Source: Prevotella sp.
Lineage (GTDB): Bacteria > Bacteroidota > Bacteroidia > Bacteroidales > Bacteroidaceae
Direction: 5' to 3'
Assembly (NCBI GenBank): GCA_017618275.1
Contig: JAFZUS010000210.1
Location: 26,803 to 90,802 of the forward strand
Length of the DNA: 64,000 nt
Within the stretch, counting starts at the first letter, position 1. Every line of letters starts with the position of its first letter. A model generated the notes under the pieces. The model did no database searches. It saw only the letters and a list, made by a program, of their open reading frames with translations, and was not told the origin of the DNA. The position numbers were made by a program, and so were the translations under genes. Positions 2,788-63,760 of the stretch are shown one piece after another.

Positions 2788-3858
2788 CTACATATAGACC
2801 TTGGCCTGGCGCTTGCCGCGAAGTACGGCAAGGGCATTGAGGGCCAAGGCTTCCATTTCATCCTCACCAGGGAAGCAGCGGACGGGTGCAAGGAACCCGA
2901 TACGCTTGCGCAGACGACTGACCACATACTCGCTACGGGCCAGTCCGCCTGTGAGCAGGATGGCATCAATACTCCCACAGAGTACAGCCGACTCGGCTGC
3001 AATGTTCTTCGCCACATGATAGATCATCGCATCAAGGATCAGACGGGCATGCTCGTCACCATAGTCCTCGATACGCCGTATCACCTCCTTCACGTCGTTG
3101 GTGCCAAGATGGGCATTCAAACCGGCCTTGCCCGCAATACGCTTCAATAGTTGCTTCTCATTATATTTCCCACTAAAGCAAAGACGGATCAGGTCTGAGG
3201 CGGGTAGTGATCCTGCTCGCTCAGGAGAGAATGGCCCTTCGCCATCCAATGCATTATTGGCATCTACGGCCCGCCCGTGATCGTGGGCTGCCACAGAGAT
3301 ACCACCACCCATATGACAGATAATCAGGTTCAGGTCCTCATACTCCTTACCTATCTCAGCCGCATAGCGACGGGCTATGGCCCGCTGATTCAAGGCATGC
3401 CAGATACAGATGCGGTTCATCAGCGGGGAGCCAGAGATACGGGCATAATCGTTCAGTTCGTCGACAACACCAGGGTCGGCAATGAACGAACGGCAACGAG
3501 GGATGGAGGCTGCAATCTCATGGGCTATCAGACAACCGAGGTTGCAGGCATGGTTGTGGAGGGCAATACCGCTATGGGTGTCCTGAATCATTAGGTCGTT
3601 GATCTCATAGACGCCACCTTCGAGGGGTTTTACCAGTCCGCCACGTCCGATGACGGCATCAAACTCCACAGGGATATCGGCTTGGTGCAATTCATCGAGT
3701 ACCAGTTGTTTGCGGAAGTCCTGCTGTTCTATCACATCGTCGAAGCCAGCCAGTTCCTCGGGGCTGTGAACGATATTACGCACCAGCACAGGGGTCTCAT
3801 CCTCGAAGACAGCCATCTTCGTAGAGGTGGAGCCGGGATTGATCACGAGGATTCTCAT
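2788..3858 (-). CDS. buk: Butyrate kinase
   Basis: A 356-residue member of the acetokinase family: N-terminal NPGSTSTKMAVF phosphate-binding motif, CHMGGGISVAAHDHGR in the middle, and the second ATPase motif LTGGLARSEYV near residue 300. Length matches butyrate kinases (about 355) rather than acetate kinases (about 400). It interconverts butyryl phosphate and butyrate with ADP/ATP in the cytoplasm; branched-chain acyl phosphates are alternative substrates in this family. The start overlaps the stop of the upstream ptb gene by 4 bases, a translationally coupled pair. Confidence 0.93.
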   Translation of the reverse strand: MRILVINPGSTSTKMAVFEDETPVLVRNIVHSPEELAGFDDVIEQQDFRKQLVLDELHQADIPVEFDAVIGRGGLVKPLEGGVYEINDLMIQDTHSGIALHNHACNLGCLIAHEIAASIPRCRSFIADPGVVDELNDYARISGSPLMNRICIWHALNQRAIARRYAAEIGKEYEDLNLIICHMGGGISVAAHDHGRAVDANNALDGEGPFSPERAGSLPASDLIRLCFSGKYNEKQLLKRIAGKAGLNAHLGTNDVKEVIRRIEDYGDEHARLILDAMIYHVAKNIAAESAVLCGSIDAILLTGGLARSEYVVSRLRKRIGFLAPVRCFPGEDEMEALALNALAVLRGKRQAKVYM

Positions 3859-54347: not shown

Positions 54348-54782
54348 TTAGGTCTTGCCGACATCAGAGCGGGCAAGTTCCCAACCTTGCATCATCGCGA
54401 AGTAATCCATTGATTCCATTCCATTCTCTTGAATCGCCATTGCAGCACCCACCATCATCCAGCGCGAGGGCTTTTCCGACGGGATGCCGAGGGGCTCGTC
54501 GGGGTTGATGCCGGTGAGTTTCGACACGTTGGCGATATATGCCTCCGTGTTGTTCTCGTTCGACGGTGCCCACCTCGACACGATGCTCCGAATGGTATAG
54601 AGCCGGTACTTGTGGTAGTAGGTACGGGTGAGCAGGTAAAACGCTGCCCGCCAGCCGTACACTAATGATTTGAACTGGCAAAAAGCCCTGTCTGTCTGCA
54701 TGTCTGCAAGACCTTTCCACACATCCTTCGCCGTGCGACGGATATTCAGTGGGTTGTGATTTCTAATTCCTCTTGGTAACAT
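54348..54782 (-). CDS. Phage structural protein P5-like
   Basis: A 144-residue protein beginning PRGIRNHNPLNIRRTAKDVW, the opening of a family annotated in Bacteroides as 'structural protein P5', with FCQFKSLVYGWRAAFYLL and WAPSNENNTEAYIANVSKLTG (in part). The fold is reminiscent of small lysozyme/transglycosylase-like phage proteins acting on the cell wall; catalytic residues are not assigned. No signal peptide. Last gene of the island; strong terminator downstream. A short direct repeat lies 140 bases upstream. Confidence 0.75.
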   Translation of the reverse strand: MLPRGIRNHNPLNIRRTAKDVWKGLADMQTDRAFCQFKSLVYGWRAAFYLLTRTYYHKYRLYTIRSIVSRWAPSNENNTEAYIANVSKLTGINPDEPLGIPSEKPSRWMMVGAAMAIQENGMESMDYFAMMQGWELARSDVGKT

Positions 54783-54922
54783 AATTTAAAAATTTAAAAC
54801 TTTGAATTTCATTCGAGATTTTCCTCGCCACGGCAAAGTCCAAGCAAACTTGGCTTTGCTCATGGCTTACGGAAAACCTTCCTGTCATAATTGAATATTT
54901 GAATATTTGAATATTTCGCTTA

Positions 54923-54964
54923 AGCGAGAGCAGAGTGAAACTTGTTTCAACACTGTCGAGCGGG
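54923..54964 (+). repeat. AGCGAGAG...AAACTTGTTT direct repeat, left copy
   Basis: Aligns without gaps to 60093-60134 (about three quarters identical); both copies precede genes of the leftward island operon. Confidence 0.55.
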
Positions 54965-54988
54965 AGAAATATCGACGAAGTCAATACT

Positions 54989-57628
54989 TTAAGGCAATTC
55001 CTGCAAAATCTTTTTGTAGGAGCCGTGGGAAACTCGCTCAACGATTCCATCCTGAACAAATCGTAAAATAGTACGAGAAGCCGTAGGCTGAGAACAATTG
55101 AATGTATCCATCATCTGCTGTGTCTTGAATTCATCAGGCAACTTGCGGTAGCATTCATCGTAGCGGGTGGTACGTCGCCGTACCACAAACTCCTTGTTCT
55201 GATCGGCGAAATAGTTGAAAGCCATCTCGCCAAAGAAGAACTGTTGGCACTTGTACTGGATTTCCATTGCCAGACGGCAGAGCCGCTTGTCTATGTCATC
55301 CATTGTCAGTGTCTTAGACTCCTGCCACTCGTCCCAATGACGCATCATGATATATGGTAGGCTTACGCCAATGCCGTAGTAAGGGATTCGTTTCAGGAGT
55401 GTCCTATCCGCCTTGTCGTGATTAAACTCTGCAATCTCCATGCGGGAGGATTGCCAGTCGTAAGTCTCATCATTCAAAGGCTCGATGGGGATTTCTCCCT
55501 CCACTCTGTCCAGACGATAAGCCCATGTGCGGAGTGTCTCATTGGCATTGGGATCCACCTGTGGGTGTCGCTGTGCCGATCCCTTATCGGGTAATGGGAT
55601 GACAGCCAAACGGGTGCTCATACCAGTACCGAAGTTCCTTTGGTTCACCTTTCTATGCAAGGCATAGGGAGTTCCCGTGTAGATGAAGTTCCAAAATACG
55701 TTGAACATTCCCGTCATACTATCCTGATTGGCATACATCTGACCATCCTGTTCGTTATGGAATGCCTTTAACTCCAAGATTTCCCTGTCCTTCCAATCGC
55801 CGCCCTTATTATTTTTGGTGACATTATCCAATTCCGAATCGAAACTGAACATGTGGAGATTCAGGTTTCTTCCTTGAATATTCTCTACTGCCGCCTGCAT
55901 GTGGCGAATGAATTCACCTGTAGCCGTTCTGGCTGGATGAACACGAATACCCACAACAGGCCGCTTTAAGGCATCAGCCTTTTGGGCCTTGGAGGATGTA
56001 GACCTCTCGGTACGCCCCTCTTTGTAGCGGTTTACCGCATCAATCAGTCCTTGATCGGCTTGAATCATCGGGTCTGCAATCTTAAAGTAAAACTTTTCAA
56101 TCACATTTTTTCCTGCACCGGGATCACCGATGATAAAGATGCAGTAGTTCAGACGGCGAATGATTTCGGGGTCATACCAGAAATGGTAATAGGCCCGGGT
56201 CATCAGCGTACCAAACAAAGCCGCACTACTAAACAGAATGGCAGGGAGTTTATGCGGATGTGCATTCAAGAAGAGTTCCTTCATACAAGGATAGACCTTT
56301 GCCATCTCCTGCAACTCGTCAGCCCACTTGTCAAGAGGGAGTTGGGCATAAATATCATCTTCTGCGTTAGCAGACTCTGATGTTTTTTGCTGGCATGCCC
56401 CTACTTTCTGCAAGGCTTCTTTCATCTGTTTAGGCATGTGTTCATTATACCTAAATGAGATGACAGAAGATACTGTAGAAGATACATTTTCACCCTCTGC
56501 AGCCAAATCCTGCACCCATTTCAGTTGCATCACCACCTCTTCTATCTTCTTGGCATTCTTACCAATCAAATATCTGAGGTGACTGGCTAATTCCACAAGG
56601 GTATTATGTCGGTTGTTTTCAAGGTTCACCCCTTCCATCCAAGCCTCAATGATCTTGGTGTAAGGAACGCCGTTGTAGGTCAGAAACTCAGCATTCCGCA
56701 CGTTCTCTCCATCACTTCCTGATACAGGTTGTTGGTTTTCTCCAGTACCTTGTACGGCAGATAAACGAGTGTTATCATCGTTACTCTCAGCAAAGTTAAG
56801 AGTAGGCTGAGACTTACCAGCATGATACAGGTCATTATACTTTTTACCAAAGTCTTCATTTTCATAAGTAAATAATTTTTCGTTTAGAATAATAATGTCT
56901 TGTCGCGTAGTTAAGAATGCACCTCGGGATGCATCCTTACAGGCCTCATCGGGATTCAATCCCAACTTGGCAGAGAAAGCCTTTTGGTTGTCAATGAGGT
57001 TGCCAACGGCAACATCAGCCATAAAGACTACTTTCAGACCATGACCGGAGGGTGTGACATACACCAGAAGAATACGTCTTTTATCCTCGTCGGATAATCT
57101 GTCGTATGCCTGCTGCCAAATCTCACGTAGAGTGCGACTGCCCCCCTCCTTCTTAGGGAGGGGCTGGGGGAAGGTCTCCTCATCCACATGGTCAAAATCT
57201 ATCACACACAACCCGTTAAGTCTGCAAGCCGCCTGCTTTCTCCAACACCCTAACTTACCACTTGCAGAAGCGGTTTCAACATAGGTTGCAATAAAGATCA
57301 CAAATGGCAGCGACTTTTTCAGGTTGTCACAATAGGTCTGCAACTTTTTTTCAAGAGACAACTCTTTAAAGGCTTCGCCCTTAGTCTTGCCTCCGGCTGC
57401 TTTCTTTCTACTTGCTTCCTGCCCTTGGCAGAACTTTACAAAATTTTCTTCTTGCGCCCACTTTTGCAGAAGTTCAGAGTCCCCTTGCAAAATGGCGGGC
57501 AGCGCCTCCCGCAACTTTCTGTGCTCGGTTGTGAGCCAGCGAGTTTGTGCACTGTCCACCAGATTATTGAAAATAGACTCAGTTACGATTGTTGTGGGCA
57601 AATCGAATCTTGATTGATTACAAAACAT
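54989..57628 (-). CDS. VirE-N / DUF3987 primase-helicase-type protein
   Basis: An 879-residue protein. The N-terminal third resembles the VirE N-terminal (BT4734-like) domain with CVIDFDHVDEETF and TPSGHGLKVVFMADV, a primase-like fold. The middle contains the DUF3987 ATPase with Walker A IIGDPGAGKNVIEKF (about residue 495) and downstream IPLPDKG. The C-terminus ends in a winged-helix-like MMDTFNCSQPTASRTILRFV. Such proteins occur in Bacteroidetes mobile elements. Residues about 157-170 (P-Q-P-L-P-K-K-E-G-G) come from a CCCCTCCC palindromic repeat. It overlaps the upstream gene by 46 bases. Confidence 0.82.
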   Translation of the reverse strand: MFCNQSRFDLPTTIVTESIFNNLVDSAQTRWLTTEHRKLREALPAILQGDSELLQKWAQEENFVKFCQGQEASRKKAAGGKTKGEAFKELSLEKKLQTYCDNLKKSLPFVIFIATYVETASASGKLGCWRKQAACRLNGLCVIDFDHVDEETFPQPLPKKEGGSRTLREIWQQAYDRLSDEDKRRILLVYVTPSGHGLKVVFMADVAVGNLIDNQKAFSAKLGLNPDEACKDASRGAFLTTRQDIIILNEKLFTYENEDFGKKYNDLYHAGKSQPTLNFAESNDDNTRLSAVQGTGENQQPVSGSDGENVRNAEFLTYNGVPYTKIIEAWMEGVNLENNRHNTLVELASHLRYLIGKNAKKIEEVVMQLKWVQDLAAEGENVSSTVSSVISFRYNEHMPKQMKEALQKVGACQQKTSESANAEDDIYAQLPLDKWADELQEMAKVYPCMKELFLNAHPHKLPAILFSSAALFGTLMTRAYYHFWYDPEIIRRLNYCIFIIGDPGAGKNVIEKFYFKIADPMIQADQGLIDAVNRYKEGRTERSTSSKAQKADALKRPVVGIRVHPARTATGEFIRHMQAAVENIQGRNLNLHMFSFDSELDNVTKNNKGGDWKDREILELKAFHNEQDGQMYANQDSMTGMFNVFWNFIYTGTPYALHRKVNQRNFGTGMSTRLAVIPLPDKGSAQRHPQVDPNANETLRTWAYRLDRVEGEIPIEPLNDETYDWQSSRMEIAEFNHDKADRTLLKRIPYYGIGVSLPYIMMRHWDEWQESKTLTMDDIDKRLCRLAMEIQYKCQQFFFGEMAFNYFADQNKEFVVRRRTTRYDECYRKLPDEFKTQQMMDTFNCSQPTASRTILRFVQDGIVERVSHGSYKKILQELP
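57140..57175. repeat. CCCAGCCCCTCCCTAA-type dispersed repeat in the primase gene
   Basis: Reverse complement carries CCCAGCCCCTCCCTAA followed by GGAGGGG, matching 11904-11939 in rnhB; in frame. Confidence 0.65.
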
Positions 57629-58197
57629 TTATCGATTTCGCTTGTCAGACTGTACAACTCTCTCCTTATTTCCAACAATCCTTTCGTCTCAAATGTGAGC
57701 CAGACCACGACCTTCGCACATGGGGACTTCGCACATGGGGACTGACCCAACTGTGTGGCGCTTGCGGCACACTGGGGGTCTGTCCCCTGTGTGCGAACGA
57801 CCTTCACCTTCAGGTTCTCCTTATTCAGTAGGAACTCACCTTCTGGCATTTCTGGTTCCTTGATCTGTATGTCTTTCGTCAGTTTCGCCAACTCCTTTTG
57901 GAAGTAGGCTGCCTTGTCAGGCACATCCTCGGGACATTTCAGTTCAAGACAAGTCAACGGGGTTTTCCCGTTGGTGGTGTAACGTTTACTTCGTCCCACC
58001 CTTTTGACATCAATCTGCGAGGGCTCGCCCTTTTCCTGGGGTGTCACCTCAATAGAATTGTCGTCAAAGACGCGGGTGTTCGACTTAAAACTCTTCACAC
58101 ACTTTTTCCGTGCATTATGCATTGTGCATTGTGAATTATGCATTGTGCATTGTGAATTGTTCTTCTCTTCCATAAGTTCAAGAAATTCTAATGTCAT
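57583..58197 (-). CDS. Unrecognised island protein with two repeat-derived segments
   Basis: A 204-residue protein if started at ATG 58197 (MTLEFLEL); 58173 is also possible. I recognise no family. The core (T-P-Q-E-K-G-E-P-S-Q-I-D-V and LTCLELKCPEDVPDKAAYF) is charged and mixed alpha/beta. Near the N-terminus a N-S-Q-C-T-M-H-N repeat is encoded by 58111-58160, and a later low-complexity segment by the palindrome at 57713-57797, so a good part of it is repeat-derived. It overlaps the primase-type gene by 46 bases and probably works with it. Confidence 0.6.
   Translation of the reverse strand: MTLEFLELMEEKNNSQCTMHNSQCTMHNARKKCVKSFKSNTRVFDDNSIEVTPQEKGEPSQIDVKRVGRSKRYTTNGKTPLTCLELKCPEDVPDKAAYFQKELAKLTKDIQIKEPEMPEGEFLLNKENLKVKVVRTQGTDPQCAASATQLGQSPCAKSPCAKVVVWLTFETKGLLEIRRELYSLTSEIDKCFVINQDSICPQQS
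57713..57797. repeat. CGCACACAGGGGACAG inverted repeat
   Basis: TTCGCACATGGGGAC occurs twice in tandem (57713-57742) and is inverted at 57782-57797; layout matches the copy inside sufS. Confidence 0.72.
58111..58160. repeat. GCATTGTGCATTGTGAATT tandem repeat
   Basis: Tandem TGCATTGTGCATTGTGAATTA units, in frame as N-S-Q-C-T-M-H-N. Related to 6899-6932 in the GH95 gene. Confidence 0.75.
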
Positions 58198-58217
58198 TAA
58201 TCTGTAAAATCTGTGGC

Positions 58218-58511
58218 TTAGTTTAAATTGATTTTGTCCACATAGATCGTCGTGGCTTGCATGGCCTCGCCGGTCTGTTGTGAGTTCCATTCACGTACCA
58301 CCATCGAACACTGCACCCGGTATAGGCGGGTCGGATCGAACTTCGGGCAGTTGACAGCCCTTTCGCCTGTGATCTCACCTAAAAAGGTGTCAAGGCCATC
58401 CGTCAATTTCAGGGCTACAGAGTTAATGATCTTCTGGTCACCCGTTTTCTTGTCAACATACTGACGTGTCATCAGTGCAGACTGATTCAAAATTCTAACT
58501 GTTTTTTCCAT
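58218..58511 (-). CDS. Small beta-rich island protein, unrecognised
   Basis: A 97-residue protein, no signal peptide. Alternating hydrophobic/polar strands (VALKLTDGLDTFLGEI, YRVQCSMVVREWNS, ATTIYVDKINLN) suggest a small beta-barrel, and its place two genes before a primase-helicase-type protein would fit a single-stranded-DNA-binding or similar accessory role (inference only). Ends 20 bases before the next gene's chosen start. Confidence 0.6.
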   Translation of the reverse strand: MEKTVRILNQSALMTRQYVDKKTGDQKIINSVALKLTDGLDTFLGEITGERAVNCPKFDPTRLYRVQCSMVVREWNSQQTGEAMQATTIYVDKINLN

Positions 58512-58576
58512 AAATAAATCAGTTTATAGAATGTGGCTCTTCCTTTCTTCTTTTTCCTTATTCATTATTAATAGTT

Positions 58577-58939
58577 TTACAATTTTACCTTATAATAAGT
58601 TCTGATACCCTTGTCGCAATTCTTCAGATAATCCATCAGTTTCCTGTAAACATCAGCCCTGAGTGCTTCTGCGAAAGCCTCATAGTTTTCAATTTCGATT
58701 TTCATTCGCTTGGCTTTCATTACCAGCAGGAAGGCATCCGATAGCAGATCAATCAGTTCATCAGGTCTTGGCATCGTGAAACGCATCCAGCAGTTCAACC
58801 AAGAAGCGATAGATACCACAAGGGTATCATAATTCAATTCTGGATAAAGACCTATTTTTTTCTTCTTATCGGCCTCTGCTACAATTATCTCGGCATAGAC
58901 CATAGCATTGAATAGGTCACCTTTTTTCATTATGCTCAT
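58577..58939 (-). CDS. Small helical island protein, unrecognised
   Basis: A 120-residue protein, mostly helical (LFNAMVYAEIIVAEADKKKK, LIDLLSDAFLLVMKAKRM). No family recognised. The start overlaps the stop of the 189-residue gene by 4 bases, so the two are translationally coupled. The last residues (CDKGIRTYYKVKL) are basic. Confidence 0.65.
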   Translation of the reverse strand: MSIMKKGDLFNAMVYAEIIVAEADKKKKIGLYPELNYDTLVVSIASWLNCWMRFTMPRPDELIDLLSDAFLLVMKAKRMKIEIENYEAFAEALRADVYRKLMDYLKNCDKGIRTYYKVKL

Positions 58940-59505
58940 ATTTCTGTGATATTAATGTTTTCGTAAATATTTTCAAGCCAAGCCATCATATAGCTCTCTT
59001 GGATAGTCCATTCTTTATCGATGGGGAAACTAACCTCATGTTTGTCACAGATAATCTTGATTTCCTTCATCACCATACGCTGCCATTTCAGACGGCTCTC
59101 TTTGTCTTTCTTTGCTTTCTTCGGTGTCATCTTCTCAACGACATCCTTTACTTCCCGTGCGCAAAGTACCAGATGATCAGGATAGTCGTTGTAGATGCTT
59201 CCCCAAAGCATGTCAGCGATAATGGCTATCTCAAAATTCCGAGCCAAACCTTTCTTAATGGCAAGTTGTCCATGCTCAAAGGCCTGGGTAAGTCCTTTAT
59301 GTAGTTTGTTGAGATAATCAAGGCATTCTTTTACATCCCAGCCTTCAAAAGGCACCTCAGCCCAAGTACACTCTGCAAGATGATCCTGCATTGGCATATA
59401 GTCACCGGCAACCTTTTCAATCTCTTTGTTTCGGACTACTTCCAGCATCATGCACTGGCTGATCAGCCCCATTCTCATTGTTTTTAATGCTTCGTATAAA
59501 TACAT
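58936..59505 (-). CDS. Island protein of 189 residues, unrecognised
   Basis: A helical, acidic and methionine-rich protein (e.g. MRMGLISQCMMLEVVRNKEI, GLARNFEIAIIADMLWGSIY), no membrane segment or signal. No family recognised. It sits directly after the KilAC-like gene (5-base gap) and is coupled to the 120-residue gene by a 4-base overlap, suggesting a joint function within the element. Confidence 0.65.
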   Translation of the reverse strand: MYLYEALKTMRMGLISQCMMLEVVRNKEIEKVAGDYMPMQDHLAECTWAEVPFEGWDVKECLDYLNKLHKGLTQAFEHGQLAIKKGLARNFEIAIIADMLWGSIYNDYPDHLVLCAREVKDVVEKMTPKKAKKDKESRLKWQRMVMKEIKIICDKHEVSFPIDKEWTIQESYMMAWLENIYENINITEI

Positions 59506-59510
59506 AATCG

Positions 59511-59855
59511 TTAATTTGTAATTTTCAACATTTCCATAATAGTTCTTTGTCCTTTTGTCGTCCAGACTGGATAAATAATTTCTTTCAGGATTCCCGCTTT
59601 GTTATATCGGAAGGTACTACGATATTTCTCAAAGCCCCGCTCCTGATATTTAAGGGTAAGCCTCAACTCACCCCCCCTCCGGCAAAGCACCTTCTTGTCT
59701 ATCAAGAACCGGTGCAAGTCAGACACAGAGATGCCGATTTCCTGTGCCAGTTCAGTGGATGTAATGCAGTCTTCTGTTCCCGCATTACGTTGCTTCAACA
59801 TGTTGCAGACAAACTCCTGAGTCGCCTGCACCTTCATTTTTTCTTTTGCATTCAT
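59511..59855 (-). CDS. KilAC-like DNA-binding protein (phage antirepressor C-terminal type)
   Basis: A 114-residue protein with SSTELAQEIGISVSDLHRFL-like helix-turn-helix content (about residues 28-50 in T-S-T-E-L-A-Q-E-I-G-I-S) and a downstream wing (CRRGGELRLTLKYQERG). This is the layout of the KilAC domain at the C-terminus of phage antirepressors, here without the N-terminal Bro/Ant part. First gene of the leftward island operon, hence a likely regulator. The AGTTGAA repeats upstream may be its operators (inference). Confidence 0.7.
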   Translation of the reverse strand: MNAKEKMKVQATQEFVCNMLKQRNAGTEDCITSTELAQEIGISVSDLHRFLIDKKVLCRRGGELRLTLKYQERGFEKYRSTFRYNKAGILKEIIYPVWTTKGQRTIMEMLKITN

Positions 59856-60092
59856 TTTTTATTCCTTTCTATTAAATTATTATTAATGTACGTGCGTGTG
59901 TGCGTTTGTACGGTGTAAAAGAAAAACTGCCGTGTCATCACGACAGGGCAGAGCCTGGCAGTCCACTAACCGCCTCATCCTTTTTAATCTGAGTCGAAGT
60001 GAGCCATCTCTGACCCTCCTCATCTCGCAAAAATCAAATCATTATGAAAAAAAACATCGTATCAAGTGTATCAACATTTCAAAGACCGCATC

Positions 60093-60134
60093 AGCGAGAG
60101 AAAAGCCAAACTTGTTTGAGCTATTCCGAGCGCC
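60093..60134 (+). repeat. AGCGAGAG...AAACTTGTTT direct repeat, right copy
   Basis: Ungapped match to 54923-54964, 5.2 kb away in the same orientation, in the leader of the KilAC-like operon. Confidence 0.55.
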
Positions 60135-60225
60135 AAAGGTTTTCGAGGCGAAGCCTCAAAGACATCGAAAAAACTTCCTCCCGTGGAGAATTTTCATTCT
60201 TCCTCTCTTGGAAGATTTTCTGGTG

Positions 60226-60233
60226 CAAAAGTA
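60226..60233 (-). promoter_or_regulatory. -7 box of the KilAC-like operon
   Basis: Minus-strand TACTTTTG (TAnnTTTG), 370 bases upstream of the first gene, immediately next to the AGTTGAA repeats. Confidence 0.5.
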
Positions 60234-60236
60234 GAG

Positions 60237-60399
60237 TTCAACTATTCAACTGAAAAATTATTTTTTAGTTGAACTTTCAGTTGAACGCATCAAACAGACT
60301 TACAAAGCCTTTGTTTATCGGTGATGCAAAAAAATAAAAAAAAATAACTGGCCCTCTGAATTGAGAGCCAGTTGAATGCCAGTTGAACTTTCAGTTGAA
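60237..60399. repeat. Seven AGTTGAA/TTCAACT heptamers (iteron- or operator-like)
   Basis: TTCAACT at 60237 and 60245; AGTTGAA at 60267, 60279, 60370, 60381 and 60393. Within groups the spacing is 8, 12, 11 and 12 bases, close to one helical turn. Confidence 0.75.
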
Positions 60400-60401
60400 T
60401 T

Positions 60402-61682
60402 TTAGTGGTTTTTTACATAGTTACAAAACCATTCGCAATATGTTTTTTTCTTGCCTCGACCTATATAAACAGCAAAGGATTTATCATCAAAATCTTCATC
60501 TTTTACTATTTCCGAAGCAATACTCAGGTCACTACTGCTGATGATTCCTGCTTCTTTCATACAGCCAATGATGCAGCCTTTAACAAATAGGGGTTTGTTT
60601 TTCCATTCATCTGCAATCTCATCCCGCCATTTCGATCTCAGTAGGTCATTCAGGAACTGGTCTATCCATTGCAGATTAAATTTCTTATCACTGCGGAACT
60701 CCTTGAACCAAGGCTTTTCGAACATCTTCAGCAGATTGATGTAGATGGAAAAATATCTGGATCCTTCAATCCCTTCGTCATTACTTATTCCCAGATATTT
60801 TCCCAACTCCGGCTTCATTCTCACCATATCCTTGTGAATCAGTTCAAGGCTCTTGATGACTTTGAAGAGGGCTATTTTCTGTTCAGGCCTAAAATTATAT
60901 TGGTGTAGTGCTATATATTTTCCATAACTTCCGTAATCAGGGATGATGAGATTCTCTTTCCGATTGGCATAATGCATGAATTTGGCGTATGAATTCTTAT
61001 ATTCATCACTATCTTTAAATTTGCATGACAGGAAGCCCCTGTGATATTGGTAATCCACGCTCTCAAGAAACTGTGACGAGGGTTCATCTGCATAGTGCAT
61101 GATATCCAACTCCAGTACTTTCTGTAGTTCTTGTTCCTGCTTTTCCTGTAGCCATTCCATCGTCACCCGATTCCTGTTCTTCTCTTTCTGGTACTCCATT
61201 TCCAACTCCGTCCAGTCGTGGCAGTTCATCAGTTTAAAGAAGTTATCTTCAAAGATGGCTGGGTCAGCCTCTTCAATGGCATTGTGGATTTTGATGATCA
61301 GTTCTATCAGTATTTTTGTCTTTTCAACATCAATATTGTAGAGGTCTTCCATCGTAATATCCCAGATAGGCTTGAATAATTTGTAAAGGACTTCCCCGAC
61401 CTTATCGCCATCCTTCGCGAGTTCCTTCATGTCGTGTTTCATCTTACCGGTCCTTTCGTAGTTTTTGAAGTCCGTCACCTCTTTGGTGTTATAGTCAGGA
61501 ATCTCACGGAGTTTTCCTTTCTTCAAGTCCTCATACATCTCTTCCCCCTGTTGGATGGAGCCTGTGACAGCAAGATCATTGCACAAACAGAAAAGTGCAT
61601 AAACACCAGGAAAGTCATCGTTGAGACTTTCATATATTTCCTTACTCAAATAATACTTCTTTACTCGATCACTGAATTTCAT
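60402..61682 (-). CDS. Orphan 426-residue island protein
   Basis: A soluble, highly charged, helix-rich protein with no family that I recognise. Visible segments: VKKYYLSKEIYESLNDDFPG at the N-terminus, a coiled-coil-like MEYQKEKNRNRVTMEWLQEK near 180, aromatic-rich YQYHRGFLSCKFKDSDEYKN near 235, and a C-terminal IVKDEDFDDKSFAVYIGRGK with basic end. No reverse transcriptase, nuclease or helicase motif is apparent. It has a canonical promoter 250 bases upstream and a strongly structured leader. It ends next to the AGTTGAA repeats, so it is monocistronic. Confidence 0.7.
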   Translation of the reverse strand: MKFSDRVKKYYLSKEIYESLNDDFPGVYALFCLCNDLAVTGSIQQGEEMYEDLKKGKLREIPDYNTKEVTDFKNYERTGKMKHDMKELAKDGDKVGEVLYKLFKPIWDITMEDLYNIDVEKTKILIELIIKIHNAIEEADPAIFEDNFFKLMNCHDWTELEMEYQKEKNRNRVTMEWLQEKQEQELQKVLELDIMHYADEPSSQFLESVDYQYHRGFLSCKFKDSDEYKNSYAKFMHYANRKENLIIPDYGSYGKYIALHQYNFRPEQKIALFKVIKSLELIHKDMVRMKPELGKYLGISNDEGIEGSRYFSIYINLLKMFEKPWFKEFRSDKKFNLQWIDQFLNDLLRSKWRDEIADEWKNKPLFVKGCIIGCMKEAGIISSSDLSIASEIVKDEDFDDKSFAVYIGRGKKKTYCEWFCNYVKNH

Positions 61683-61774
61683 TTCGTTTATAAGTTAATT
61701 ATTAGATTCATAAAATTAAGTTTGTTAGTTTTTCATAATACTTATTGAAGACATAAATACGTGGAGCAGTGATT

Positions 61775-61899
61775 AACAGCACAGGGTCTAGCCACCCCTT
61801 ACAAACGCGAAAACCACTGCACCCACGTAAACTACGTGAGTCAGTGGCCATCCGTCGCGTTTTATAACTGTTACTTACTTGGCTAGAGTTCGTGCTGTT
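61775..61899 (-). ncRNA. Candidate structured leader RNA with five nested stems
   Basis: Five perfect, consecutively nested stems: AACAGCAC/GTGCTGTT (61775-61782 with 61892-61899), TCTAGCCA/TGGCTAGA (61787-61794, 61880-61887), AAACGCGA/TCGCGTTT (61803-61810, 61855-61862), CCACTG/CAGTGG (61814-61819, 61842-61847), CACGTA/TACGTG (61824-61829, 61833-61838; 3-base loop). In total 36 base pairs in 125 bases, with internal loops of 4/4, 8/17, 3/7 and 4/3. A canonical minus-strand promoter lies about 40 bases upstream, so it is transcribed as the leader of the orphan gene or as a separate RNA. No known riboswitch is recognised. Confidence 0.65.
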
Positions 61900-61937
61900 C
61901 GAACGACATGGCTCTGATTCAATAAATATCTTGGATG

Positions 61938-61969
61938 CAAAGATAGTCTAAATCTTCCACAAATCCAAA
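61938..61969 (-). promoter_or_regulatory. Promoter of the structured leader and orphan gene
   Basis: Minus-strand TTTG (61969-61966), 20-base spacer, TATCTTTG (61945-61938). Predicted start of transcription about 61933. Confidence 0.8.
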
Positions 61970-62265
61970 TTTATCCCTGTTTTTTATTGCTTCATTGGCA
62001 TTCCTCCATAATTTATTATACCATTACTGGCGGTTTATAACTTGATTATTGCTTTTCACACGTGCATTTTCATATGGTGTGTTTTGCAAACGGACACGAA
62101 GGTACAACATTTCTTTGAAACGACCAAATACCCCCAAATTTACCGTTTCCCTTGTTTTCAGCACTTTTCACGACAAAACTCTGCTTTTTATCGACAAACC
62201 ATTTTTCGCCCTTAAAACTTTTATTTTTCTTTAAGATTTATGAGAAAAAAAGTGGGAATAAAGGT

Positions 62266-62350
62266 TTCGCAGTGATGCAGACTCCTTTTCAATAAAAAAG
62301 ATTTTTAGATTATCATAGTATGTGGGGGGATTCGTAGTGATGCGAGTTCC
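62266..62350 (+). repeat. Pair of TTCGYAGTGATGC direct repeats
   Basis: TTCGCAGTGATGCAGACTCC (62266-62285) and TTCGTAGTGATGCGAGTTCC (62331-62350), 15 of 20 positions identical, 65 bases apart. Confidence 0.5.
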
Positions 62351-62419
62351 CTCATTTTTTTATATTATAATAAGGTGAAAATGGAGGATGCGGAATGAAG
62401 GCACCCTCATGTTATGCTA

Positions 62420-62905
62420 TTATTCTCCCATAATAATATTTACCAACTCTACCACGTCGGCGGCATCCACCTTGCCATCGTTGTTTAAGTCCCCACGAAG
62501 ATTACTAATTGGATCCATCTCTACTATATTTTGAAATTCTCGCCAGCCTTCATAATCAACATACAATCCTTGGGTTCCTGTAGGTATATAGAGTGTACCT
62601 TGCATATAAGTCTCTGTAGGAAACACACTGCTATGGATGGAATATGGCTTAGTGATGTTTGAAGTAACAGACATCAAATTCGGACATCCAGCGAAAGCTT
62701 CAATGCCAATAGATGTAACGCTTTGGGGAATAGCAATCGAAGAAAGGTCTGTACAACTGGCGAATATTTTAAATGTTGATAATCAACAACTTACATCTTA
62801 AACGGTAGAAAAGTGGCCTTGAGGATTCTTGGATGATTCCAAAGCATGTAGATTTAACGTATTTAACGTTCTTAAACTGCCTGCGAATTCAAATTGAAAG
62901 TGCAA
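62420..62905 (-). pseudogene. Remnant of BspA-like leucine-rich-repeat protein with dockerin-like end
   Basis: The distal piece reads F-A-S-C-T-D-L-S-S-I-A-I-P then SVTSIGIEAFAGCPNLMSV, a typical BspA LRR repeat, and ends with RGDLNNDGKVDAADVVELVN, a dockerin/EF-hand-like calcium motif common at Prevotella C-termini. Upstream, a second piece in another frame (EFAGSLRTLNTLNLHALES) is separated by stops and a frameshift. The large N-terminal part is missing. This is a decayed surface-protein gene at the border of the accessory island; the ATG at 62677 is internal. Confidence 0.75.
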
Positions 62906-62923
62906 TAGATCTTTTATCTGCCG

Positions 62924-63760
62924 CTATTCATATCCATATACCAACCCGTACTTCTCATGGAGCTGTCGGAGGCTACCGTCGGCCTTCATTTTGGCGATGA
63001 CGGCGTTGACAAGGGCGAGGAGATCATCCTGACCCTTGGGCATCAGCACACCAATCTCCCCGTGGGTAAAAGGTGTGTTTAGGAGCGGTGCAGCGAGGCG
63101 CGGGTCATTCTGCACGTACCACGGAGCCTCAGTAATTTCAGTAATCATCACGTCGGCATTACCCTCTGCCACCTGATTGGGGATTTCCTCGTTCTTCTGC
63201 CAGACGATGATGGTGGCATGAGTGAGATTCTGGTTGGCAAATTTCTCGTTAAGTCCTCCTGGGTTCACCATCACAAGCACCTCGGGCTTGTCGATGTCGG
63301 CCAGTGACTGGTAGCGGTCGGCCTCAGTAGCACGGCAAAGGATGGTCTTGCCATTGGCCAGATAACCCTCGCTCATCAACATAGTTTCCTTACGGGCATC
63401 TGTAATCGTGATGCCGCCTATGGCAAGGTCAAACATCTGGGGTTCTGCCTGAACATCAGCAGCCAGCGTTGGCCACGAGGTATGTACGAATTCAATGCCT
63501 ACACCGATACGCTCGGCTATCTTTTCTGCCATCTCAATGCCGAAGCCCCAATAGTTACCGTCGGCCTCGAGGTACGAGAGAGGTCGATAGTCGCCCGTGG
63601 TGCCTACCAGCAACTTGCCACGCTCTTGGATGCTTTGAACGGTAGGCTGCGCTGCCGATGGATTATCATCGTTCGCCGCGCAAGATGCAAATGCCGCTGA
63701 GCCGCAGAAGGTAAGGATGGCGGCCAGCATCCAAAGATTCGTTTGCTTCATGGTTTTCAT
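62924..63760 (-). CDS. Periplasmic family-3 binding protein, PheC (cyclohexadienyl dehydratase)-like
   Basis: A 278-residue exported protein: signal with lipobox-like FASC (about Cys27), then the PBP fold. The sequence follows cyclohexadienyl dehydratase closely: VGTTGDYRPLSY, GFGIEMAEKIAERIG, FVHTSWPTLAADV, DLAIGGITIT, VNPGGLNEKFANQNL, and ITEITEAPWYVQ with the Glu that is catalytic in PheC. It could convert prephenate or arogenate in the periplasm, or be an amino-acid sensor or binding protein. It lies 27 bases downstream of a SpoIIE phosphatase gene; no permease genes are nearby, which argues against ordinary ABC uptake. Confidence 0.8.
   Translation of the reverse strand: MKTMKQTNLWMLAAILTFCGSAAFASCAANDDNPSAAQPTVQSIQERGKLLVGTTGDYRPLSYLEADGNYWGFGIEMAEKIAERIGVGIEFVHTSWPTLAADVQAEPQMFDLAIGGITITDARKETMLMSEGYLANGKTILCRATEADRYQSLADIDKPEVLVMVNPGGLNEKFANQNLTHATIIVWQKNEEIPNQVAEGNADVMITEITEAPWYVQNDPRLAAPLLNTPFTHGEIGVLMPKGQDDLLALVNAVIAKMKADGSLRQLHEKYGLVYGYE

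Follow-up and report, generated by a model that had tools for sequence, protein, structure and literature searches.

Structure and position of the folded element

The window, the whole 64,000-nt stretch of a Prevotella sp. contig analysed here, carries a long nested inverted repeat at 61775-61899, ahead of a minus-strand gene for a 426-aa protein. This raises the question of whether the repeat acts as RNA or as DNA and, if as RNA, what it acts on. The initial annotation had favoured a new structured regulatory or leader RNA made of five perfect nested stems, with a recombination site as the alternative. On the minus strand the segment folds into a single nested rod with a minimum free energy of -56.7 kcal/mol, whereas dinucleotide shuffles give a mean of -35.2 (sd 3.75, z = -5.73) and 0 of 200 are equally stable. 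The five nested stems, running from P1 to the apical hairpin, are thus present at the position and on the strand proposed, and both fold and covariation identify them. P2 (61880-61887 pairing with 61787-61794) and P4 (61842-61849 pairing with 61812-61819, recovered by fold and covariation) have the 8 bp described, P1 (61891-61899 pairing with 61775-61783) has 9 bp rather than 8, and P3 is bulged. The apical hairpin CUCACG..CGUGGG (61822-61840) contains a U.G pair that is conserved in 49 of 61 members of the family described below.

The five stems form only the middle of a larger folded domain of about 200 nt at approximately 61734-61933, which is closed by a further helix, P0 (5' strand 61918-61933, 3' strand 61734-61749). 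The complete domain is seen in the minimum free energy fold and its closing helix is supported across Prevotella members. Between P0 and P1 lie a 5' box, GAGCCATGTCGTTCG (61900-61914), which is kept in near members, and a 3' box, AATCACTGCTCCACG (61760-61774), recognized by comparison of members. The Bacteroidetes-type promoter (TTTG-N20-TAnnTTTG) claimed at 61938-61969 of the minus strand is present as TTTG (61966-61969), a 20-nt spacer and the -7 box TATCTTTG (61938-61945), a box that recurs in other members. The first base of the folded domain is 4 nt past the -7 box, and its last base is 51 nt ahead of the start codon of the 426-aa gene (60402-61682, minus strand). A short upstream ORF overlapping the RNA was noticed by eye in the window and in locus L069 and was set aside, its start codon being missing in L050, L051 and L070.

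Covariation and conserved residues

Relatives of the 426-aa gene are preceded by the same rod written in different letters. Single-sequence folds made before any model was built showed this for L005 (a Prevotella MAG whose protein is 82% identical to the 426-aa product), for same-genome paralogues at 41% and 24% identity and for distant homologues; most stem letters differ among these sequences while the architecture is retained. A covariance model, R1, was built from three sequences, further members were found with R1 and a second model, R2, was built from 11. R1 scores the window at 175.3 bits on the minus strand versus 13.5 bits on the plus strand, and its opposite-strand matches were excluded from alignment A7 by the E-value limit. 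Among the 11 sequences 39 of 43 pairs have changed on both sides, with a covariation of 0.712 compared with at most 0.122 when pairing partners are slid. The corresponding values are 35 of 43 pairs and 0.634 (at most 0.125 slid) for 21 same-genus matches, and 35 of 43 pairs and 0.599 (at most 0.092 slid) for 22 matches from other families of the order. When 61 members are pooled, 41 of 43 pairs are double-changed (752 cells) and covariation is 0.718 versus at most 0.106 for slid partners, with shuffled controls run as well; all of these counts rest on alignments A7-A10, which were fitted to the structure. All nine P1 pairs and all seven modelled P2 pairs covary. Given the same 61 rows, RNAalifold returned 24 pairs, of which 23 belong to P1, P2 or the apical stem and 22 carry double changes; P3 and P4 were not recovered. 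The compensatory changes that had been named as the mark of an RNA are therefore found, with a covariance model, in every helix and in each of the sets of 11, 21, 22 and 61 sequences. Of the 58 members compared, 56 also fold more stably as the transcribed strand than as the complementary one (the difference averages -9.7 kcal/mol), a bias that wobble pairs on the transcribed strand would produce. We are nearly certain that the element represents a real RNA family.

The closing helix P0 was examined separately through its flanks. In 35 Prevotella members each 5' flank pairs better with its own 3' flank than with swapped ones (20.3 versus 15.9), and 0 of 5000 permutations did as well; taken singly, only 8 of the 35 rank above the 95th percentile for swapped flanks, so that the significance is that of the set. 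The test is weaker at order level, where 60 of 5000 permutations were as good, and many closing helices in other families are nearly one sequence, AAAAAGCGT/ACGCTTTTT.

Several unpaired residues are nearly invariant across the 61 members: the AA (91-98%) and CC (93-98%) of the internal loop next after P1, one G (98%) and the AGC of the 5' box (83-95%). These residues bear on the proposal that the rod is a passive 5' element, which would shield the end of the mRNA from decay or insulate it from upstream transcription without sensing anything. Such a role agrees with the pairing of the 5' end in P0 and with the unrelated kinds of genes found downstream, but protection alone needs no near-invariant loops far from the end, and we consider it improbable. 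Together with the apical U.G pair, the invariant unpaired residues look like a recognition surface.

Distribution and relation to known RNAs

R2 matches are widespread in Prevotella and thin out with phylogenetic distance. At E<=0.1, 155 of 398 same-genus genomes contain a match, with up to six matches seen per genome, and at E<=1e-5 a hand count gives 116 of 398. In the order, 29 of 344 genomes (own genome included; E<=0.01) in 26 of 194 genera match. Because only 7-12 candidates were scored per genome, these genome and copy counts are lower bounds. The phylum-level control returned the own genome and 2 of 246 others, which counters generic long palindromes as a source of false matches.

BLAST searches with a 281-base query from L186 placed the RNA in named records. 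In Parabacteroides distasonis (NZ_OY725790.1) it lies 74 nt upstream of WP_005858880.1 and in Phocaeicola massiliensis (OY726002.1) it precedes a histidine kinase ORF (HisKA, HATPase_c). The third match, the gut phage-like record MT835758.1, was missed by R2; folding reveals a promoter box, a nested rod and a GCTCACG/CGTGGGC hairpin. Two ORFs follow there, one of 215 aa that matches nothing in Pfam and one of 708 aa for an AAA ATPase, whose OLD-like TOPRIM match stays below the curated cut-off. Searched by BLAST, plasmids contained no match to the window's own RNA and phages none to the L110 RNA.

No Rfam 15 family matches at its gathering score in the window or in 20 loci, nor at E<=3 in five consensus-like loci. 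The five sub-threshold matches within 61680-62000 (for example mir-9456 at 16.9 bits against a threshold of 80) were taken as noise. Covariance models of 6S RNA, tmRNA, T-box and other known RNAs have no match in the window and ARAGORN detected no tmRNA there, in agreement with the initial annotation, which had recognized no riboswitch, T-box, tmRNA or 6S layout. Its statement that no reverse transcriptase is nearby also holds for the 10 scanned proteins of 54348-63760, so that the adjacency typical of retrons was not found. In the literature, covered mostly through the openings of abstracts, nothing recognizable as describing this RNA was encountered. PMC8040213 describes palindromic Bacteroidetes candidate RNAs, HMP_4078 (109 bp), located near D5_N and integrase domains, and HMP2_4205 (132 bp). 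Like the present RNA these are long, palindromic and from Bacteroidetes, and HMP_4078 and other candidates of that study might overlap this family, as judged from their descriptions.

Position between a predicted promoter and a gene

The RNA has a constant polarity, with a promoter box before it and a gene behind it. Of 58 members, 42 have a TAnnTTTG -7 box in the 75 nt upstream (32 of 36 from Prevotella and 10 of 22 at order level), versus 4 of 58 on the opposite strand, with 2.9 expected from shuffles. The 58-member set, which was also used for the P0 flank, T-run, antiterminator, attC and strand tests, draws for the genus on those matches that were fetched. The first ORF of at least 100 aa within 400 nt shares the strand of the RNA in 51 of 58 cases, is opposite in 2 and is absent or cut off in 5; this count likewise has n = 58, with L112 and L175 (contig ends) replaced by L200 and L201. 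The distance from the modelled core to the ORF has a median of 77 nt and is 27-134 nt in 40 of the 51 same-strand cases. Judged by these sequence features, the RNA is located between a predicted promoter and a same-strand gene.

This arrangement separates a leader from a stand-alone, trans-acting sRNA, for which promoter, rod and terminator would constitute a self-contained gene lying next to others by chance, and whose RNA might, in some loci, assemble with the protein made from the first gene. The RNA does have its own promoter box and a U-run end, occurs in several copies per genome and resembles 6S RNA, which is a rod with conserved open loops. A free gene would, however, be expected to have neighbors on either strand, in conflict with the 51 to 2 ratio above. 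Promoter-like boxes are at chance level behind the RNA (2 of 58 on the same strand and 3 of 58 on the opposite strand in a 75-nt span, 2.9 expected). In L182, moreover, RNA and gene have been duplicated in tandem as one unit, which also speaks for a leader. We regard a trans-acting sRNA as rather unlikely and a cis-acting leader as highly probable.

The same polarity and upstream promoter box disfavor the recombination-site alternative, according to which the repeat would act as a single-stranded DNA hairpin for recombination or cassette exchange of accessory genes, similar to integron attC sites. Those sites are also imperfect hairpins tied to accessory genes, and the position of the element ahead of varied accessory genes would suit such a function. 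So would the tandem RNA and gene units in L182 and the PIN-type toxin-like genes upstream of the RNA in some order-level loci. Unlike attC sites, the element lacks the expected boxes: RYYYAAC is found in 4 of 58 members, GTTRRRY in 2 and both in 1, near the 2.9, 2.4 and 0.16 of shuffled sequences. The integron integrase model TIGR02249 exceeds its cut-off in 0 of 9 genomes, with weaker, below-cut-off matches present as in 14 of 14 control genomes. Longer arrays are not seen either, since 18 of 20 stretches of 3-16 kb hold a single copy, the exceptions being the tandem pair in L182 and two copies on opposite strands in L176. We consider a DNA-level role very improbable.

Genes associated with the RNA

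The 426-aa protein is modular, consisting by eye of a variable N-terminal and an exchangeable C-terminal module. It has no Pfam, NCBIfam, PHROGs or PADLOC match, its family profile matches no solved structure (best E 0.26) and one pattern scan of viral contigs revealed no relative. The gene had been called an orphan, which is incorrect: it has three relatives in the same genome and its family profile matches 54 of 398 same-genus genomes including its own, some of them through the C-terminal part only. Of 35 usable loci of its N-terminal module, 14 have a model-found RNA immediately ahead of the gene (15 when L079, identified by folding, is counted); five of 40 loci were not usable, lacking a start codon or sufficient sequence upstream. 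The expected association with homologues of the 426-aa gene is hence real in these 14 loci and does not extend to the RNA as a whole, many more copies of which precede other genes. An exclusive partnership between RNA and protein is thereby ruled out. In L056 the RNA points away from the gene with this module and instead precedes a Res-like gene of the type III restriction kind, the only gene of such a pair within view.

Two relatives without a model-found RNA have other long AT-rich inverted repeats upstream (L009, ca. 2900-3100; L078, ca. 1650-1850). In L007, L013, L014 and L016 a short ORF ending in ..KGG, identified by eye, is found ahead of the gene and is possibly a leader peptide of a subgroup.

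The rest of the window's cluster (54348-59855, minus strand) encodes a KilAC/ANT-domain protein, small proteins, an 879-aa protein with a BT4734-like N-terminal domain and an endolysin-like protein. On the other side of the RNA, at 62420-62677, an 85-aa ORF resembles a gene fragment, with a dockerin match of 21.6 bits compared with the Pfam cut-off of 22.9.

Among 40 fetched same-genus stretches, picked mostly from top-scoring R2 matches and not at random, the first gene belongs in 20 to F0, a modular family clustered by single linkage, of which the 426-aa protein of the window is a member. By eye, F0 proteins mix different N- and C-terminal modules. Visual comparison of the F0 proteins of the window and of L115-L154 distinguished at least three kinds of N-module, one of them HIRAN-like, and about eight exchangeable C-modules. 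F0 genes often stand ahead of VapE- and HU-HIG-type genes, and the F0 modules that were scanned received no family name. Further downstream, VapE-type (PF05272), HU-HIG (PF18291) and DUF4248 (PF14053) genes are found, as named on L150 representatives. The name HU-HIG was reportedly introduced in an earlier paper. Clusters of HU-HIG, VapE, DUF4248 and amidase genes in Bacteroidetes are headed by this RNA in many same-genus loci, yet genes for type III restriction-modification, RmuC, BspA-like proteins and a histidine kinase stand behind it elsewhere. In L147 and L148 the RNA is 63-64 nt away from a type III restriction-modification gene pair; in L148 the pair matches ResIII and N6_N4_Mtase and is followed by an HNH-like gene. 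First genes in other families encode RmuC (L171), an N6 DNA methylase (L167) or a BspA-like leucine-rich protein (L173). PKD-domain and secreted-looking proteins, the latter without a family above cut-off, come first in L157, L160, L164, L166 and L169.

Upstream of the RNA, several genomes have toxin-type genes recognized by Pfam matches. Genes for PIN or DUF5615 proteins end 32-64 nt away in 4 of 19 order-level loci (L158, L159, L160 and L164). A PIN gene is located 86 nt upstream in L198, from the own genome, and a HepT-like gene 277 nt upstream in L161.

A candidate conditional leader

The covariance models and compensatory changes support what the initial annotation mainly proposed, namely a new structured RNA with a regulatory or leader role, and the RNA probably controls the switching-on of the genes it precedes. 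Transcription from the Bacteroidetes promoter would produce a leader that folds from near its first nucleotides into a closed rod, with P0 predicted to be followed by the conserved open region, P1, the AA/CC internal loop, P2, an asymmetric loop, P3/P4 and the apical CUCACG/CGUGGG hairpin. The rod would end shortly ahead of the first gene, in many members at a U run. The RNA end carries a run of at least five T residues in all 22 order-level members and in 17 of the 35 from Prevotella, compared with a shuffled mean of 2.7-2.8. From this U run at the rod end and the chance-level promoter boxes behind the RNA we infer that RNA polymerase may tend to stop there and that gene expression would require read-through. 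Read-through could in turn be controlled by a protein or small molecule reading the conserved loops. Since 18 of 35 Prevotella members are without such a run, termination cannot be universal. The full reading, a cis-acting structured 5' leader that is probably a conditional terminator with its gene expressed by read-through, stands in our judgment at an even balance of probabilities. An antiterminator-like helix pairing the 3' box with a downstream GGGG seemed convincing on inspection and was not significant, as 396 and 380 of 5000 permutations were equally good.

In general design the RNA is similar to the cis-regulatory riboswitch and attenuator leaders in Rfam, being a structured RNA between promoter and start codon with covarying helices, conserved loops and, in many members, a U run. 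It differs from them in matching no Rfam 15 family and in the unusual heterogeneity of the genes downstream. Because these genes are so diverse, one shared signal is not obvious. We nevertheless tentatively consider, as a rather doubtful extension, an order-wide RNA switch responding to one common signal that would set the expression of imported and conflict-related Bacteroidales genes, with VapE/HU-HIG clusters, restriction systems, the OLD-like AAA nuclease-type gene and surface proteins as its joint targets.

If a large, well-covarying RNA present in so many same-genus genomes (the 116 of 398 counted above) is without an Rfam match, this would be a notable gap, and the covariance model, promoter and conserved loops yield clear testable predictions. 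Being located ahead of unrelated, often accessory or defence-like genes, the RNA may reveal how Bacteroidales control imported genes. Should the order-wide switch be true, unrelated mobile genes would have acquired a shared on/off leader and would form a regulon-like set in which an RNA takes the place of the DNA operator.
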